This document shows positions 56,279 to 64,000 of a stretch of 64,000 bases of DNA, piece by piece. The DNA lies in assembly GCA_902606115.1 (NCBI GenBank), contig CACLFM010000005.1, forward strand, positions 1 to 64,000, read 5' to 3'. Positions within the stretch are counted from its first letter, which is position 1, and the number at the start of each line of letters is the position of its first letter. The position numbers and the translations under genes were made by a program. The notes beneath the pieces are model-generated. The model worked only from the letters and a program-made list of their open reading frames with translations, was not told the origin of the DNA and searched no databases. Source of the stretch: an uncultured Pelagibacteraceae bacterium. GTDB lineage: Bacteria > Pseudomonadota > Alphaproteobacteria > Pelagibacterales > Pelagibacteraceae.

Positions 56279-59179
56279 ATGAAAAAAATATTTACTAAAA
56301 TCTGTTTTATAAAATTATTCTTTTTTTTAATATTTTTTTATTCGAGTAATCCAATACAAGCCTATACAGTTTTAGGAACTAATACTAGCTCTTTGCTTGG
56401 AGGAGATCTTACTGATCCCGAAGATAATGGTACTGATGGCTCGAATTCTAATTGGAATTGGACTTCTATAGATGCAAGCTCTGAAGAAGCATGGAGCGGA
56501 GAAGGATCTTTTAACGTTTTTGACAATAAAGTTGGTTCGGGTGATAACAAGTGGTGCTGTAATGGGCCAACACAGTGGATATCAGTAGGATTTTCTCAAG
56601 CCTATGTCTTAACTCATTTTACAATTACATCGGGAAATGACTCTTCTAGTAGAGATCCAGATATTTTTAAAATCCAAGGTTCAAACAATGGTAGTGATTG
56701 GACTGATATTTATTCTTACAGCAACAACAACACATCACCTTGGGGCTCAACAAGAAATCGAGTAATAAAGTGGACTGGTGGTGGTGATGACTATGCTACT
56801 CCTTCAGCATATTCTTATTTTAGGTATTATGTTACCTCTGTTGTAAGTGGTAGTATGCACCAAATTAATGAAATTGAATATTTTGGAACAGCAGATGCTA
56901 CTCCAACTTTAAGTTCATCTACTCCAGCTGATGATGCAACAGATATATCAGTTTCATCGAATATAGTTTTAAATTTTAGTGAAATCGTCAATGCTGTAAG
57001 TGGTAATATTACTATTAAAAAAACATCTGATAATAACACGGTTGAAACGATTAATGTAACAGGTGGTCAGGTTACTGGATCAGGCTCAACTCAAATTACG
57101 GTTAATCCATCATCTGATTTAACCGGATCAACAGAATATTATGTATTAATTGATGATACAGCTTTTGATGATGCTACTGGTAACTCTTATGCAGGAATAA
57201 GTTCTACAACGGCATTAAGTTTTACAACGGAGGATAATATTGCTCCAACTCTATCTTCCTCAGTACCAGCTGATGATGCTACTGGAGTTGCAGTTAATGC
57301 AAATATTGTTCTTACATTTAGTGAGAGCGTGAGCGCAACATCAGGAAATGTTACAATCAAAAAAACTTCAGACGATAGTACGGTTGAACAAATATCAGTT
57401 ACAGGTGGTCAGGTTTCAGGTAATGGAGCACAAGGACCACAAGGTCAAGCAGGTGGTGATCAAATCACTATAAATCCATCAAGTGATTTTGATAGTTCAA
57501 CTGAATATTATGTTTTGATTGATGACACAGCATTTGAAGATGGAGCAAATAACGCTTATGCTGGAATAAGCTCTACAACAGTATTAAGTTTTACTTCAGT
57601 CGATAATGCTAATCCTACACTTTCATCTTCATCACCATCTGATGATGCAACTGATGTAGAAGTTGATGCTAACATTGTTTTAAATTTTAATGAGAGTGTT
57701 GATGTAGAAAGTGGTTACATTACATTAAAAAAAACATCAGGTGATAGCACAGTTGAGCAAATTGATGTTACAAGTGGACAGGTTTCAGGAACAGGATCAA
57801 GCCAGATAACTGTTAATCCTTCATCTGATTTTGATCCAGGTGTTGAATATTATGTTTTAATTGATGACACAGCTTTTGATGATGCCTCAAGTAACTCTTA
57901 TGCAGGTATTAGCTCAACAACTGCACTAAGTTTTACATCAACTTCAAAAAGTGATCCTACTACTGACAAAAATGTGACAGGTTCTCTTAAATCACTTACA
58001 GAACAAGTCAAAACCTCATTCACCTCATCAGTTGCAATAGTTACAAGTAGGCTTAATTATTTAAGACAGAATAGAACTAGCAATAATTTCAATAGTAATA
58101 ATATAAAATTAGATTTTGATAATGCTATTCTAGCATCCTTAATGGATACTATACCTATATCAACTTACACAAAGCCAAATTTTTTACCTGATGATTGGTC
58201 ATTATGGAGTGAGGGATCTATAAGTGTTTCCAAGGTTGGTGATGGCGGCATCTCTAATAATTCCTCAAAAGAAACTGATAGTCAAAGTATAGCTTTTGGA
58301 TTTGATAAAAAAATAAATGACACCGACCTCTTAGGTTTTGCTGTTCAATATGGCTTAAGTGACACAGATGTAGGGAATGATGGCACTGGTATTGACAGTG
58401 AAAGTCTAAGTTTATCAATTTATAGAACAAAACCATTTAGTAATAATAATTTTATGCAAGGTTTAATTGGATTTGGATTTATAGAATCTGATAGTGTTAG
58501 AAAAAACTCTGGAAATACTTTAACGGGCTCAAGGAATGGTAACCAATTATTTGGATCAATAAATTATGGTAAAACCTTTGGTCAAGGTGAATTTAATGCA
58601 ACACCAATTGTAAGACTTGATTTAGGATATACCGAACTAGATTCTTATACAGAAACTGGAACTGATGCATTATCGTATTCTAAACAAACATTTGAAAGTG
58701 CACTTGGATCAATAGGTCTAGAGATTAATGATCTAATTAAATTCTCTGATAATTCATTTAAACCATTCGGTATATTTGAATACAGTTTAGACTTTAGTAA
58801 TTCCTCTGATGTAAAAATGAATTATGTATCTGACACATCTACAACATATACTTATACACAAGGCGTAAGTTCAACTCATTTAGCATCATCTGAAATAGGG
58901 TTTAATTTTGAAGCTAAAGATAATCTTAAATTAACATCTAGCTACAAACGTATCCAAGGAAATAAAAGTGAAAGAACAGACTCTTTAAGATTTGGTTTTA
59001 ATTACAGATCTATGCGTGAAACTGATTATTCATTAAATATTGGTGGAAATAATGAACTAGCAACACTTGTAGACGTAACAAAAAGAGTAAATGGTTTGCA
59101 CCTGAATTTTAATGCAAGACAAGCGTTTGATGATTCTTCTGATCGAAATGCTAATATTTCACTATCTAAAAAATTTTAA
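56279..59179 (+). CDS. Autotransporter-like protein: discoidin-like domain, three Ig-like repeats, C-terminal beta-barrel
   Basis: FKIQGSNNGSDWTDIYSY...SYFRYYVTSV...INEIEYFG (F5/8C-like); three repeats PTLSSS(T/V/S)PADDATD...YYVLIDDTAFDDA...YAGISSTTALSFT; barrel ending SLSKKF. Confidence 0.75.
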   Translation: MKKIFTKICFIKLFFFLIFFYSSNPIQAYTVLGTNTSSLLGGDLTDPEDNGTDGSNSNWNWTSIDASSEEAWSGEGSFNVFDNKVGSGDNKWCCNGPTQWISVGFSQAYVLTHFTITSGNDSSSRDPDIFKIQGSNNGSDWTDIYSYSNNNTSPWGSTRNRVIKWTGGGDDYATPSAYSYFRYYVTSVVSGSMHQINEIEYFGTADATPTLSSSTPADDATDISVSSNIVLNFSEIVNAVSGNITIKKTSDNNTVETINVTGGQVTGSGSTQITVNPSSDLTGSTEYYVLIDDTAFDDATGNSYAGISSTTALSFTTEDNIAPTLSSSVPADDATGVAVNANIVLTFSESVSATSGNVTIKKTSDDSTVEQISVTGGQVSGNGAQGPQGQAGGDQITINPSSDFDSSTEYYVLIDDTAFEDGANNAYAGISSTTVLSFTSVDNANPTLSSSSPSDDATDVEVDANIVLNFNESVDVESGYITLKKTSGDSTVEQIDVTSGQVSGTGSSQITVNPSSDFDPGVEYYVLIDDTAFDDASSNSYAGISSTTALSFTSTSKSDPTTDKNVTGSLKSLTEQVKTSFTSSVAIVTSRLNYLRQNRTSNNFNSNNIKLDFDNAILASLMDTIPISTYTKPNFLPDDWSLWSEGSISVSKVGDGGISNNSSKETDSQSIAFGFDKKINDTDLLGFAVQYGLSDTDVGNDGTGIDSESLSLSIYRTKPFSNNNFMQGLIGFGFIESDSVRKNSGNTLTGSRNGNQLFGSINYGKTFGQGEFNATPIVRLDLGYTELDSYTETGTDALSYSKQTFESALGSIGLEINDLIKFSDNSFKPFGIFEYSLDFSNSSDVKMNYVSDTSTTYTYTQGVSSTHLASSEIGFNFEAKDNLKLTSSYKRIQGNKSERTDSLRFGFNYRSMRETDYSLNIGGNNELATLVDVTKRVNGLHLNFNARQAFDDSSDRNANISLSKKF

Positions 59180-59303
59180 ACTTAAAAAACTTAGGTTAGA
59201 GATATTTTATAGTCTCGTACAGTCTTAAATCCCATTATATTCTACATTTTAAGAAAACAGTGAATTATTTTTATTGTAAAATATGAATAATAAACTCTAC
59301 CAA

Positions 59304-59337
59304 ACTAGAAACTAACTAGAAACTAGAGAAATAAAAT
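59304..59337 (+). promoter_or_regulatory. Two perfect tandem 11-bp repeats followed by a -10-like element, upstream of pilin operon
   Basis: ACTAGAAACTA x2 (59304-59325) then GAGAAATAAAAT; pilin 1 starts at 59353. Confidence 0.5.
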
Positions 59338-59352
59338 TATATAATTTTCTTT

Positions 59353-59841
59353 GTGAAAAACAAAGGCTTCACTTTAATAGAACTCTTAGTAGTAGTAGCC
59401 ATCATTGGTATTTTAGCTGCGGTAGGAGTGGTTGCATATAATGGGTATACTCAGAGCGCAAAACAAAATGCTATAAAAAAACAACACAAAATGTTGATCA
59501 ACTCAGTAAATGCTGAATTGATGAAATGTGATTTAGGAGAAAAAAAAATAATGGCAGATCAAGTATGGTGTAGTTGGGCAAATAATACACAAATGCTTTG
59601 TAATCATATTGTTATATATAATTTTTTTGGTCCAAAACTTAAAAACCCCTATGATACAAACCAACAAAATCATGTCGAATGTTCTGCTAGCGTGCCTAAT
59701 AGTGATGTGATGATAGGAAAAATTATCTATGATACATATGGTGGGGCAGGAGGTTTAAAAGTTACTATATGTTTAAAAACACCTTGTAATAACGCATCAA
59801 ACAGATTTACAGATACATTTAAAATCAATAATCAATTTTAA
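59353..59841 (+). CDS. Type IV prepilin-like protein 1 of 5
   Basis: (GTG)[36 protein letters not shown]. Confidence 0.9.
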   Translation: MKNKGFTLIELLVVVAIIGILAAVGVVAYNGYTQSAKQNAIKKQHKMLINSVNAELMKCDLGEKKIMADQVWCSWANNTQMLCNHIVIYNFFGPKLKNPYDTNQQNHVECSASVPNSDVMIGKIIYDTYGGAGGLKVTICLKTPCNNASNRFTDTFKINNQF

Positions 59842-59847
59842 TTTTTA

Positions 59848-60366
59848 ATGCATAGCAAAGGCTTCACGTTAATAGAACTCTTAGTTGTAGTAGCTATCAT
59901 AGGTATCTTAGCTGCAGTAGGTGTTGTTGCTTATAATGGATATACTAGTAGTGCAAAAGCTGGTTCTACAAAGGCTAATTTTAAAATGATGCAAAGATAT
60001 ATGTCCGCAGAAATAGCAAAATGTGATTTAGGTGAAACACAAATTATGAAGAGGGATAGTGGATCAGGTTTAAAATGTTCAGGAATTACATATGGATTAA
60101 TTATTCCTCATTTACAACAGCTGTTTAATACAGACAAAAAATTAGTTAGTGTTTATACGGATTTGACTTATGTAAGAAATACTGGACCATCAACAAATTC
60201 TAGCAGTATAGGTTCAATTCATTTAAACGGAATATCACATGATAAAACTTTTAATCCTGGAGCCTCGCCACCTCTCGATAAAAATGATATAAGATTAACT
60301 TCATGTTTTAAGGAACCATGTACTGATGCAAATAACAACCTCTCTGCTGTTGTCAACATTGATTAA
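59848..60366 (+). CDS. Type IV prepilin-like protein 2 of 5
   Basis: [37 protein letters not shown]. Confidence 0.9.
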   Translation: MHSKGFTLIELLVVVAIIGILAAVGVVAYNGYTSSAKAGSTKANFKMMQRYMSAEIAKCDLGETQIMKRDSGSGLKCSGITYGLIIPHLQQLFNTDKKLVSVYTDLTYVRNTGPSTNSSSIGSIHLNGISHDKTFNPGASPPLDKNDIRLTSCFKEPCTDANNNLSAVVNID

Positions 60367-60865
60367 AAACAAAGGATTCACCCTAATAGAACTTTTAGTC
60401 GTTGTAGCTATCATAGGTATCCTTGCTGCAGTAGGTGTGGTGGCTTATAATGGATATACATCTAGCGCTAAAAAGAAAGCAATGGAAAGTAATCAAAAAA
60501 TGATTCAAAAATATGCAATGGCTGAAATTGCCAAATGTCAGATGGGAACAAATCTTACAGAGGGGCCAACTGTAAGCAAACATATAACTTCATGTTCAAC
60601 TGGAGGTGCTGGAAATTTAAACAGCAATGTTTGGGCACAATATTTCATAGACGTTTTCCAAACTAAAATTAAAAATCCTTATAATACAACTCCTAGCAAC
60701 CCAAGCGGTCTATTAAATAGCGGGCCGACTAGAAATTCTGGTGAAATTGTTTTAGTAGGATGGAACCAATGTAAAACCGACCCCTGCTTTTTAATTGATG
60801 CCTCTTATGACGATAGCGGAACTAAAAAATCTTTAGATCAGTTACAAGTGCCAACAGGATTTTAA
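60359..60865 (+). CDS. Type IV prepilin-like protein 3 of 5 (start trimmed to TTG overlapping pilin 2 stop)
   Basis: (TTG)[40 protein letters not shown] track starts at 60326. Confidence 0.85.
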
Positions 60866-60866
60866 T

Positions 60867-61364
60867 TTGAAACAAAAAGGCTTCACGTTAATAGAACTCT
60901 TAGTCGTTGTAGCAATCATAGGTATTCTAGCTGCAGTAGGAGTGGTCGCTTATAATGGTTATACAGCTAGAGCAAAGGATACTGTCTTAAAAAAAAATCA
61001 CGACATAGTTATGAAGTTTTTAAATATGAAAGTTATGGAATGTGAACTTGGTAATGAAAATATAAGTTTTAAAAATGCATCAGGAAATAATGTAAATTAT
61101 AGTTGTAGCTCAAAAAACAAAACAGATTTTGCCAATAAAATAAAAGACCATGTTAATAACCAGATTTGTGAAAATATTTATAGATCAAATAGAGGCTGTA
61201 TGGAGTTAACAGGTGGATATATAGAAGAGACAATTGCAGTTGATATTAATACAGGACATAAATCGTGTGCGATTTATATAAGAACATATGTAGATAGAAA
61301 CCTAAATGATCCACCCTATGAGTATGGAGGCGTTATTTTTGAAATGCCTATTTGGTGTAAATAA
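60867..61364 (+). CDS. Type IV prepilin-like protein 4 of 5
   Basis: (TTG)[36 protein letters not shown]. Confidence 0.9.
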
Positions 61365-61934
61365 GTGAAACGATGTAATAACTGCAAAGCCTTCACACTA
61401 ATAGAACTCTTAGTCGTTGTAGCTATCATAGGTATTCTTGCTGCGGTCGGAGTGGTTGCTTATAATGGGTATACTTCTAGTGCAAAAAAAAATACTGTAA
61501 TACAAAATGTTAAGTTAATCCAAAAATTTATAATGAACGAAGTAAAAAAATGTGAAATGGGAGTAAATGGCACATCTTCTCCAAAGTCATCGGCTCATAT
61601 TACACGTTGTGAAATTGGTGGAGGTAATATATCAACAAATGATTGGGCAATTTATGCGATTGATGCTTTTAAAGATAAAATTGTTAACCCATACAATACA
61701 ACTCCGAGCTATCCATCCGGTCTTCAAAATTTAAAATGGTTTAATAGTAGGAAAGTTGAATTTGCAGGTGAAATATTGATTGATGGCATGGGAGGGCATC
61801 AAGGTTATTGTCCTAAAACAACGGCTCTATACGGTTCTCAGAACAGAAGAGCATGCGTTATAATTGCTGCTGCTTATGAAGAAAATGGAGTAAAAGTTGA
61901 TCTTCCGATTATTGAAATAGTAACACTTTTTTAA
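61365..61934 (+). CDS. Type IV prepilin-like protein 5 of 5 (Ala at the -1 cleavage position)
   Basis: (GTG)[40 protein letters not shown]. Confidence 0.88.
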   Translation: MKRCNNCKAFTLIELLVVVAIIGILAAVGVVAYNGYTSSAKKNTVIQNVKLIQKFIMNEVKKCEMGVNGTSSPKSSAHITRCEIGGGNISTNDWAIYAIDAFKDKIVNPYNTTPSYPSGLQNLKWFNSRKVEFAGEILIDGMGGHQGYCPKTTALYGSQNRRACVIIAAAYEENGVKVDLPIIEIVTLF

Positions 61935-61976
61935 ATTAAAAAATTAAAGTTAAAAGGTATAAACTGTAATTAATTT

Positions 61977-62285
61977 ATGAATAAATTTTCTAAGTTTGGA
62001 TTAGGTATGGCTATTGGTTTAACTTGGATGATTGCAATAATTTCAACTGGTTTTTTTGCAATGTATATTTTAAAAGATGGTTATAATTCCAATTGGCATG
62101 AAAGCATCATTAATTCTGTAGTTATATTCAGAGGTATATTTGGCTTACCTTATCCAGGCTGGGCATTAGACTCTATCAGTACAATTTTGGCTGGTTTGTG
62201 GGGATTTGTCCATGGATTTATTGCAGGATTTTTAATAGCTTTTTTTTATAACATTTTTGAAAAACTTTTTAGGAATTTAAAATAG
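61977..62285 (+). CDS. Small membrane protein, resembles the family often annotated 'bacteriophage holin'
   Basis: 102 aa, two to three TM segments, GLGMAIGLTWMIAIIS...LAGLWGFVHGFIAGFLIAFFYNIF. Confidence 0.55.
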   Translation: MNKFSKFGLGMAIGLTWMIAIISTGFFAMYILKDGYNSNWHESIINSVVIFRGIFGLPYPGWALDSISTILAGLWGFVHGFIAGFLIAFFYNIFEKLFRNLK

Positions 62286-62348
62286 TTCTTAAATAGTTAG
62301 GATTTTATAGGATAACTAGAACTAGATTAGAACCTAAAGGGATAAAAT
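62281..62348 (+). repeat. Tandem 11-bp-period direct repeats followed by -10-like GATAAAAT
   Basis: AATAGTT at 62281 and 62292; TAGAAC-N5-TAGAAC at 62317-62333; then AAAGGGATAAAATAAA. Confidence 0.55.
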
Positions 62349-62417
62349 AAAAAAATTTTACTTATTCATCTTGTTGAATTATAAATATTAGCATAAATAC
62401 TCATGAAATTCATTTAT

Positions 62418-62464
62418 GCCCTCGTGGTGAAATTGGTAGACACAAAGGACTTAAAAGCCGAGGG
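62418..62464 (+). pseudogene. Internally deleted tRNA-Leu(UAA)-like sequence
   Basis: GCCCTCGTGGTGAAATTGGTAGACACAAAGGACTTAAAA matches the 5' half of tRNA-Leu(UAA) through the anticodon loop, then joins directly to GCCGAGGG, which can pair with the acceptor 5' strand; no 3' anticodon stem, variable arm or T-arm. Confidence 0.6.
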
Positions 62465-62476
62465 ATTCACAAGTGA

Positions 62477-62506
62477 GTTAGTCCGTGGTAGTCCAAGGTA
62501 GTCTAA
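62477..62506 (+). repeat. Three tandem 10-bp repeats (GTTAGTCCGT/GGTAGTCCAA/GGTAGTCTAA)
   Basis: Read directly just after the tRNA-Leu fragment; GGTAGTCT recurs at 62637. Confidence 0.7.
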
Positions 62507-62584
62507 AACATCCTATAAGATCACATAACTTTAATTTAGCTTTCTATTAAGATTAGAAAATAAAACTTAATTAATTTGAACAGA

Positions 62585-62677
62585 CTTGTACTAAACTTGT
62601 ACTTAAAGGTATAAAATAAAGCTATAACCCATTCTGGGTAGTCTTACACTAAACATGAACTTAAATAAGTTTATAAA
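62585..62677 (+). repeat. Two further copies of the 11-bp-period direct-repeat element
   Basis: CTTGTAC-TAAA-CTTGTAC-TTAAAGG-TATAAAAT (62585-62617) and CTTACAC-TAAA-CATGAAC-TTAAATAAGTTTATAAA (62643-62677). Confidence 0.55.
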
Positions 62678-62683
62678 GCATCA

Positions 62684-64000
62684 ATGGTTGTAAAAAAATT
62701 TTTTAAAATTCATTATATTGTAATTTTTTTAGCTTTATTTCTTTCTAAAGCTATAGCGGAGCCAACCTTTGTACGAAGTAAATCAATAAATGCAGACCAA
62801 GGAGAATTTGGATTAACATTTAATAATGATGGTACCAAAATGTATACTACACAATATGATAAGAGTGGTGGCGGTCAACAAAGTGATAATGTTTACGAAT
62901 ATGTATTAACTACTGCCTATGATATTTCAACAGCAACCTTAAACAATACTAAAACAGTACATGTAACAGGAACTCATGGAAATGGTGATACACTTATACC
63001 AAACCAAGTAGTGTTTAATAACGATGGAACAAAAATGTTTATTGCTGACCATGGTTCTAATAATATAGATTACTGGTCACTAACCACTGCATTTGATGTT
63101 TCAACTGCTTCACTTGAGGGTAGATATGATGTTTCTAGTAAAGAAGTAAGATTAACTTCCGTTGCATTTAATAATGATGGTACCAGAATGATTATTGCTG
63201 GTGTAGGAAATAATACTCAACATCACCTTAATGAATATTCACTAGATACAGCATTTGATCTTAGCTCAGGAGTTACACATCTTAATACTGAAGACTTAAG
63301 TTCTTTTCACACTTACTTAGATGGAGTTACTTTTAATCACGATGGTACTAAAATGTATACCATTGATAATACAACCAATCAGGTTTCTCAGTTTAAATTA
63401 ACTACACCTTATGATGTTTCTACTTACTCCCTTGAAGGTACCTATAATGTAAATTCTCATGATACTGATGCAAGAGAAGTTGCGTTTAGTCATGATGGAA
63501 GTAAAATGTTTTTCATTGGTAATACCAATAATAAAGTTTTTGAATTTAATCTAAGCTGTAATTGGAGTGTAGTTGATGGTGCTTGTGATGATCCGGCTGA
63601 TACAAGTGATGAAGGTAAAGATATTTCAAGTTCAATTGAATCTCAAACAGCAACAGCTAAACAAATTGCTATTCAAGCAAGCACTCCAGTTCTTAATCGT
63701 ATGTATTGGTTAAGACGTCATAGAAATGAAGATAAATTAAGTAATCAAAATATTAAATTTAACTTTTCAAATTCAATGATGGCATCTCTTTCAAAAGTTA
63801 TTCCAGTATCTAACAAAACAAATGATATTTTAGATAAAATATCTGATAATTGGTCATTTTGGAGCGAAGGTAGCGTTAGTGTTGGTAGAGTAGGTGACAC
63901 ATCTTCTTCATCATCAAAAAAAATTGATAGTAAAGGTATTACAATTGGAATGGATAAAAAAATTAGTGAAAACAAAATGTATGGATATGCTCTTCGATTT
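62684..64000 (+). CDS. Autotransporter-like protein with repeat passenger, truncated by window end (not in ORF track)
   Basis: ATG at 62684 opens 439 codons without stop: MVVKKFFKIHYIVIFLALFLSKAIAEPTFVRSKS...TFNNDGTKMYTTQYD...; linker and barrel start DNWSFWSEGSVSVGRVGD parallel to the two upstream autotransporters. Confidence 0.78.
   Translation, partial: MVVKKFFKIHYIVIFLALFLSKAIAEPTFVRSKSINADQGEFGLTFNNDGTKMYTTQYDKSGGGQQSDNVYEYVLTTAYDISTATLNNTKTVHVTGTHGNGDTLIPNQVVFNNDGTKMFIADHGSNNIDYWSLTTAFDVSTASLEGRYDVSSKEVRLTSVAFNNDGTRMIIAGVGNNTQHHLNEYSLDTAFDLSSGVTHLNTEDLSSFHTYLDGVTFNHDGTKMYTIDNTTNQVSQFKLTTPYDVSTYSLEGTYNVNSHDTDAREVAFSHDGSKMFFIGNTNNKVFEFNLSCNWSVVDGACDDPADTSDEGKDISSSIESQTATAKQIAIQASTPVLNRMYWLRRHRNEDKLSNQNIKFNFSNSMMASLSKVIPVSNKTNDILDKISDNWSFWSEGSVSVGRVGDTSSSSSKKIDSKGITIGMDKKISENKMYGYALRF

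Follow-up and report, generated by a model that had tools for sequence, protein, structure and literature searches.

The pilins of the Neisseria pilE/pilS system consist of a constant N-terminal and a variable C-terminal part, and they are varied by homologous recombination between a single expressed gene and truncated donor copies that are silent. In Haloferax volcanii, the hydrophobic N-terminal domain of the pilins PilA1-PilA6 is almost completely conserved while the rest of the proteins differs; each of these pilins is able to build a pilus, and the conserved segment is essential (PMC4371748). In SAR11, pilins are known from regions of variable gene content: according to the available part of the report on HTCC1062, the hypervariable region HVR1 contains pilins beside autotransporters, and HVR4 has pilins as well (Wilhelm et al., 2007, PMC2217521). 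That part treats gene gain and loss by region and does not describe a shared core, large arrays or a decoupling of core and head. Furthermore, an adhesion autotransporter of SAR11 was reported to have pilus or secretion genes as neighbours in every case and to be located in hypervariable regions in some (PMC12636525); as at the locus studied here, a surface autotransporter is found by pilus genes, and the pilins themselves were not analyzed in that work. Recombination in SAR11 was described, in the accessible portion of the source, as promiscuous and genome-wide (PMC12374537).

The locus lies in a window of 64,000 nucleotides, which represents positions 1-64000 of contig C5 of a 1.02-Mb, 86% complete genome (G000). 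The closest pilins on named contigs belong to Pelagibacteraceae (SAR11), mostly to single-cell genomes. As the initial annotation had stated, five consecutive prepilin genes (p1 to p5) are located at 59353-61934, and they encode an identical stretch of 28 residues (the core) followed by divergent C-terminal parts (the heads). The genes of the array and of its surroundings are as follows:

56279..59179, + strand, gene of an autotransporter-like surface protein (966 aa), which immediately precedes the array
59353..59841, + strand, prepilin p1 (162 aa), GTG start, leader MKNKG, common 28-residue core, own head
59368..59451, + strand, 84-bp core of p1
59848..60366, + strand, prepilin p2 (172 aa), ATG start
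60359..60865, + strand, prepilin p3 (168 aa), TTG start; an alternative in-frame upstream ATG at 60326 is possible
60867..61364, + strand, prepilin p4 (165 aa), TTG start
61365..61934, + strand, prepilin p5 (189 aa), GTG start, longer leader MKRCNNCKA
59863, 60377, 60882 and 61392, + strand, starts of the 84-bp core in p2, p3, p4 and p5
61977..62285, + strand, gene of a 102-aa membrane protein beside the array, function not assigned
62684..64000, + strand, second autotransporter-like gene, which extends to C5:64813

All five ORFs are intact, each with a start codon, a leader and a stop. The end-to-end packing and the alternative starts noted earlier were likewise confirmed, with spacings of +6, -8, +1 and 0 nt between successive genes and with GTG or TTG as the start codon except in p2; judged by this spacing, translational coupling of the five genes is plausible. 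No Rfam match was found within 58000-64000. As in HVR1, the array is flanked by autotransporter-like genes (56279 and 62684) and its content varies between strains, the match with HVR1 being one of gene content, and a homologue 87% identical to the upstream autotransporter-like protein is located upstream of the pilins of genome G112. A protein 37% identical to the 102-aa membrane protein adjoins pilins in genome G200 (L087:9611-9898). A 162-bp duplicate, 90% identical, of the tRNA-Leu upstream region and the 5' half of the tRNA was observed at 62298-62459; the intact tRNA-Leu copy is found at C5:64953-65038, and the two flank the second autotransporter gene.

Five pilins are what the window contains, but the genome carries nine: two further such genes are located on C5 just past the window (C5:65886 and C5:68019), and two at C9:28186-29213, where they immediately follow a pilD-like and a small lipase-like gene. 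It had also been pointed out that motor and secretin genes are missing, which is true of the window, but a full type IV pilus machine is encoded on contig C9 (a pilD-like gene, pilB, pilC, pilM-Q and a pilT-like ATPase), and the machine serving the array is located elsewhere in the chromosome. The C9 ATPases were identified by searches with PF00437 and TIGR02538, and the other machine names, prepilins aside, were assigned by reading the translations. The same contig carries genes for the minor pilins FimT, PilV, PilW and PilX and for a PilY1-like protein, with N-termini unlike those of the nine. Among 115 genomes of the genus, pilins and PilB/PilT-type ATPases occurred together in 62, while 50 had neither and three had only one of the two (pilins in 63 and ATPases in 64, as counted from listings), and the pilin-bearing genomes had 1 to 15 pilin copies each. 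The distribution of the type IV pilus within this SAR11 genus is patchy, and nearly half of the near-complete genomes are devoid of pilins and motor ATPases.

The 28 residues of the core are invariant in p1-p5 and in all nine genomic copies, and FTLIEL-type motifs occur five times in the window, compared with an expectation of 0.05. In all nine, the prepilin leader ends with KG (KA in p5) and is followed by FTLIE, in keeping with a class III signal peptide, and the peptidase and the assembly machine that this class of prepilin requires are encoded in the genome (C9). All nine matched PF07963 with E-values of 1.1e-8 or better, above the curated cut-off, and profile matching of the pilins reached solved type IV pilins. 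An AlphaFold model of p3 (mean pLDDT 78.5, pTM 0.69) displayed two helix segments and four strands; a fold search of the PDB with this model gave no match below E = 0.001, the top hit being the gonococcal pilus (E = 0.33). In a sample of 182 pilins from 30 genomes, 148 of which have the standard core, the number of cysteines was even in 145 of these 148, with all cysteines in the head and none in the core. Going by these features, each pilin is most likely a real subunit, and the locus would represent five of the nine full-length type IV pilins that this SAR11 bacterium encodes. The 28 residues would form the membrane and polymerization helix (alpha1-N with hinge), and since this helix has to be compatible with PilD, PilC and the remaining subunits, the core would be held constant, while the heads would constitute the variable exposed surface with their cysteines probably paired as disulfides.

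A different assignment of these genes, as minor pilins or pseudopilins of a DNA-uptake or secretion machine and not as major subunits, would agree with the presence of small prepilins in a cluster and with the weak similarity of some of them, at the N-terminus only, to GspG/GspH and ComG profiles. We consider this assignment very unlikely, since the usual minor pilins are encoded separately on C9 with different N-termini, none of the nine (0/9) reached the NCBIfam cut-off for any specific minor pilin or pseudopilin family, and ComEC is absent from the genome and the genus. ComEC (PF03772) was found neither in G000, where absence was judged from six-frame searches in an assembly of 86% completeness, nor in any of the 113 near-complete genomes of the genus (0/113), and it was present in 10 of 14 control genomes. 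Canonical DNA uptake and natural transformation are therefore unlikely, and the earlier suggestion of a DNA-uptake fibre was not borne out.

Within the genome of the window, the heads show a mutual identity of 18-48% (48% for p5 and p3). As in Haloferax, the nine copies share one hydrophobic domain, here with 28 identical residues, while the remainder diverges, and PilA1-PilA6 may, by analogy, be the closest functional parallel; the Haloferax set differs in being archaeal and in that its conserved domain also regulates motility. To our knowledge, neither tandem operons with changing membership nor a signature of head swapping has been described for the Haloferax pilins.

At a threshold of 50% identity, the heads of the sampled pilins formed 62 families, including 39 singletons. 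The head of p1 is 77% identical to a copy in one relative, that of p2 is 96% identical to a G112 copy located in a different array, and that of p3 is 87% identical in G112 and 78-80% identical in G176 and G244. Among the genomes sampled, the head of p4 has a counterpart only in G188 (82% identity), and that of p5 has no close relative. For the nine pilins of the genome together, the heads of p2, p3, p6, p8 and p9 are 87-96% identical in G112, partly at other loci (p8 adjoins pilD in the window genome, but is found within an array in G112), and those of p1, p4, p5 and p7 have no close counterpart in G112. A comparison of copy number and C-terminal turnover across SAR11 genomes, as suggested in the initial annotation, did not reveal the same genes in the same order: content, order and copy number of the pilins differ strongly among relatives, even at one locus. 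In G176, G150 and G244, the same locus with flanking genes of 93-96% identity yet contains different heads. Within genomes, no pair of heads with at least 70% identity was observed (0 of 444 pairs), where about 4 would be expected at the cross-genome rate.

As in Neisseria pilE/pilS, a constant N-terminal part is combined with a variable C-terminal part, and change by homologous recombination is proposed here, too. If only one pilin were expressed and the others formed a donor reservoir in the same cell, multiple copies with a conserved 5' segment and a variable 3' part would be present as well. However, unlike in Neisseria, all five copies in the window are complete with start, leader and stop, and no promoterless, 5'-truncated donors are found among them; one internal stop was the only sign of a broken pilin copy among the relatives' matches listed, and no head is repeated inside a SAR11 genome. 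Antigenic variation of the Neisseria type is thus extremely improbable at this locus, and the reservoir for variation considered in the initial annotation is not supported in the sense of silent copies. Its other suggestion, a mixed pilin repertoire, was supported by the intact genes with starts and leaders, the even cysteine numbers, the co-occurrence with the machine and the lack of redundancy within genomes.

Between the cores of p1-p5, 9-16 of the 84 nucleotide positions differ per pair; the five cores are therefore not one recent copy. Every one of these differences is silent, as would be expected of an ordinary pilin multigene family in which whole genes are duplicated or transferred as units and the core is identical only by purifying selection on the helix. 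At residue 25 of the core, six genomes, that of the window among them, have N, and most others have S. Head families cross the divide between these two dialects; of the 92 cores in such mixed families, 86 show the dialect of the host genome, so that the cores track the genome and not the head family, which argues against a multigene family of this kind. On the other hand, the dialects follow clades, and whole-gene transfer with subsequent adaptation of residue 25 could account for the match.

The silent divergence of core and head was compared for 20 independent pairs whose heads share 90% identity or more. As four- and six-fold degenerate codons are frequent in the core and inflate raw contrasts, the core was set against amino-acid-matched head codons; the raw contrast of 0.38 vs 0.16 was replaced by a silent difference of 0.38 in the core and 0.22 in the composition-matched head codons (pooled over the 20 pairs), an effect that is weaker but still there. 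The core was more silently diverged than the head in 16 of the 20 pairs (p = 0.012), contrary to what transfer of whole genes would produce, and the strongest matched pairs were G142/G216 (p = 7e-6) and G055/G188 (p = 6e-5). Without composition matching, the silent difference in G220/G289 was 54% for the core, compared with 4% for the head (p = 6e-9). Pairs between the window genome and G112 showed the expected direction in three of four cases, none of them significant singly (p 0.11-0.78). In several pairs, such as G252/G150 and G000C9_28683/G112, core and head were equally diverged, which is in line with genes moving as units. Most of the genomes are single-cell or metagenome assemblies, in which chimeras are possible; the complete single-contig genome G055 still shows strong cases.

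Near-identical heads were also found behind unrelated upstream sequence and diverged cores, which again speaks against an ordinary multigene family. In a set of 23 pairs with unaligned upstream sequence, several of which are actually same-locus pairs offset by small indels, the silent difference was approximately 0.5 in codons 1-21 and then 0.29, 0.22 and 0.16; from this fall along the gene, most junctions are located near the end of the core. At a locus common to G011, G244 and G252, identity was 85-98% upstream, 80-87% in the core and 95-96% in the head, the core alone being divergent between two similar sides. Cores belonging to orthologous heads were 13.2 nt apart, compared with 16.5 nt for other cross-genome pairs, and since they are somewhat closer, the decoupling of core and head is partial, not complete. 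Pairs of copies from a single locus showed no core island, as a multigene family would predict; the core is therefore not simply hypermutable, and this explanation was rejected. Weighing these observations, we regard the transfer of whole genes under purifying selection on the helix as unlikely to be the full account.

The third-position GC content of the core is elevated and rises with copy number (Spearman 0.58, p = 0.001), a correlation that is confounded with clade. GC-biased gene conversion in the core was rejected as well, with p = 0.06 within the S dialect and no effect of array membership (0.165 vs 0.171). In the collected SAR11 cores, genome-rare codons (e.g., TTC, CTC, GTC, ATC and GGG) were observed at fixed positions across paralogues and species, a pattern that is also confounded with clade.

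Across SAR11 genomes, heads are gained, lost and moved between loci. We consider it probable that the pilins form a repertoire without redundancy, in which the cell carries different heads on one common stalk design, and that heads are exchanged mainly through homologous recombination within the common 5' core or close to it. Crossovers would fall within the 5' core or shortly downstream of it, and also within the core of the following gene, and incoming heads would consequently end up on the local core version. Core-core homologous recombination, putatively of the RecA type, or gene conversion of the core would allow the heads to move while the local core persists. The pilins would be expressed and either co-assembled or used alternately, and phage adsorption, surface binding or both may provide the selective force.

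Related pilins, with nearly the same core and a head family of their own, were found on six viral contigs in a viral contig scan:

L228:3442-3969, phage-type pilin
L229:1359-1886, phage-type pilin
L230:4983-5510, phage-type pilin
L231:1119-1646, phage-type pilin
L232:4983-5513, phage-type pilin
L311:5251-5778, phage-type pilin

Several of these pilin genes adjoin clear phage genes, among them those for an N4-like RNA polymerase, a thymidylate synthase, an endolysin and a Gp2.5-like single-strand binding protein, which identifies at least L228, L230 and L232 as phage. The cores of the L231 and L232 pilins are identical except for 1 of the 84 bases, and their heads are clearly diverged. No SAR11 pilin in the comparison shares a head with the phage pilins, the nearest being about 32% identical, and no pilin of phage type was found in named phage genomes. 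That a phage pilin alters the host pilus is our guess. More broadly, it is conceivable, though we are doubtful, that the fixed 84-bp anchor acts as a crossover platform for a pool of head cassettes shared among populations, in which phages take part, and that the anchor-plus-head pilin of an N4-like phage could enter and alter the host pilus, e.g., to block other phages.

SAR11 bacteria are among the most abundant in the sea and have streamlined genomes, and in the lineages that have retained the pilus, as many as 15 genes are given over to different heads. Should heads be exchanged via a common anchor, surface variation would arise from complete, non-redundant genes and not from silent cassettes, which offers a reason for the hypervariable look of SAR11 pilin regions. 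The purpose of the pilus and phage-driven change become testable, with the phage-borne pilins as a direct lead. While the hypervariability of SAR11 pilins was already known, the modularity of core and head appears to be new; a literature search, with most subscription journals outside its scope, found no description of core/head exchange in SAR11 pilins or of a SAR11-type pilin on a phage.

Many relatives also have a second, shorter pilin of roughly 121-136 residues from the core on, which lacks the common core and has a different one, such as AILGIIASIGIMSYNGYV. This pilin is often located beside pilus machine genes, and examples are found at L045:5913-6341 and, on the minus strand, near position 18859 of L084 and near position 700 of L086.
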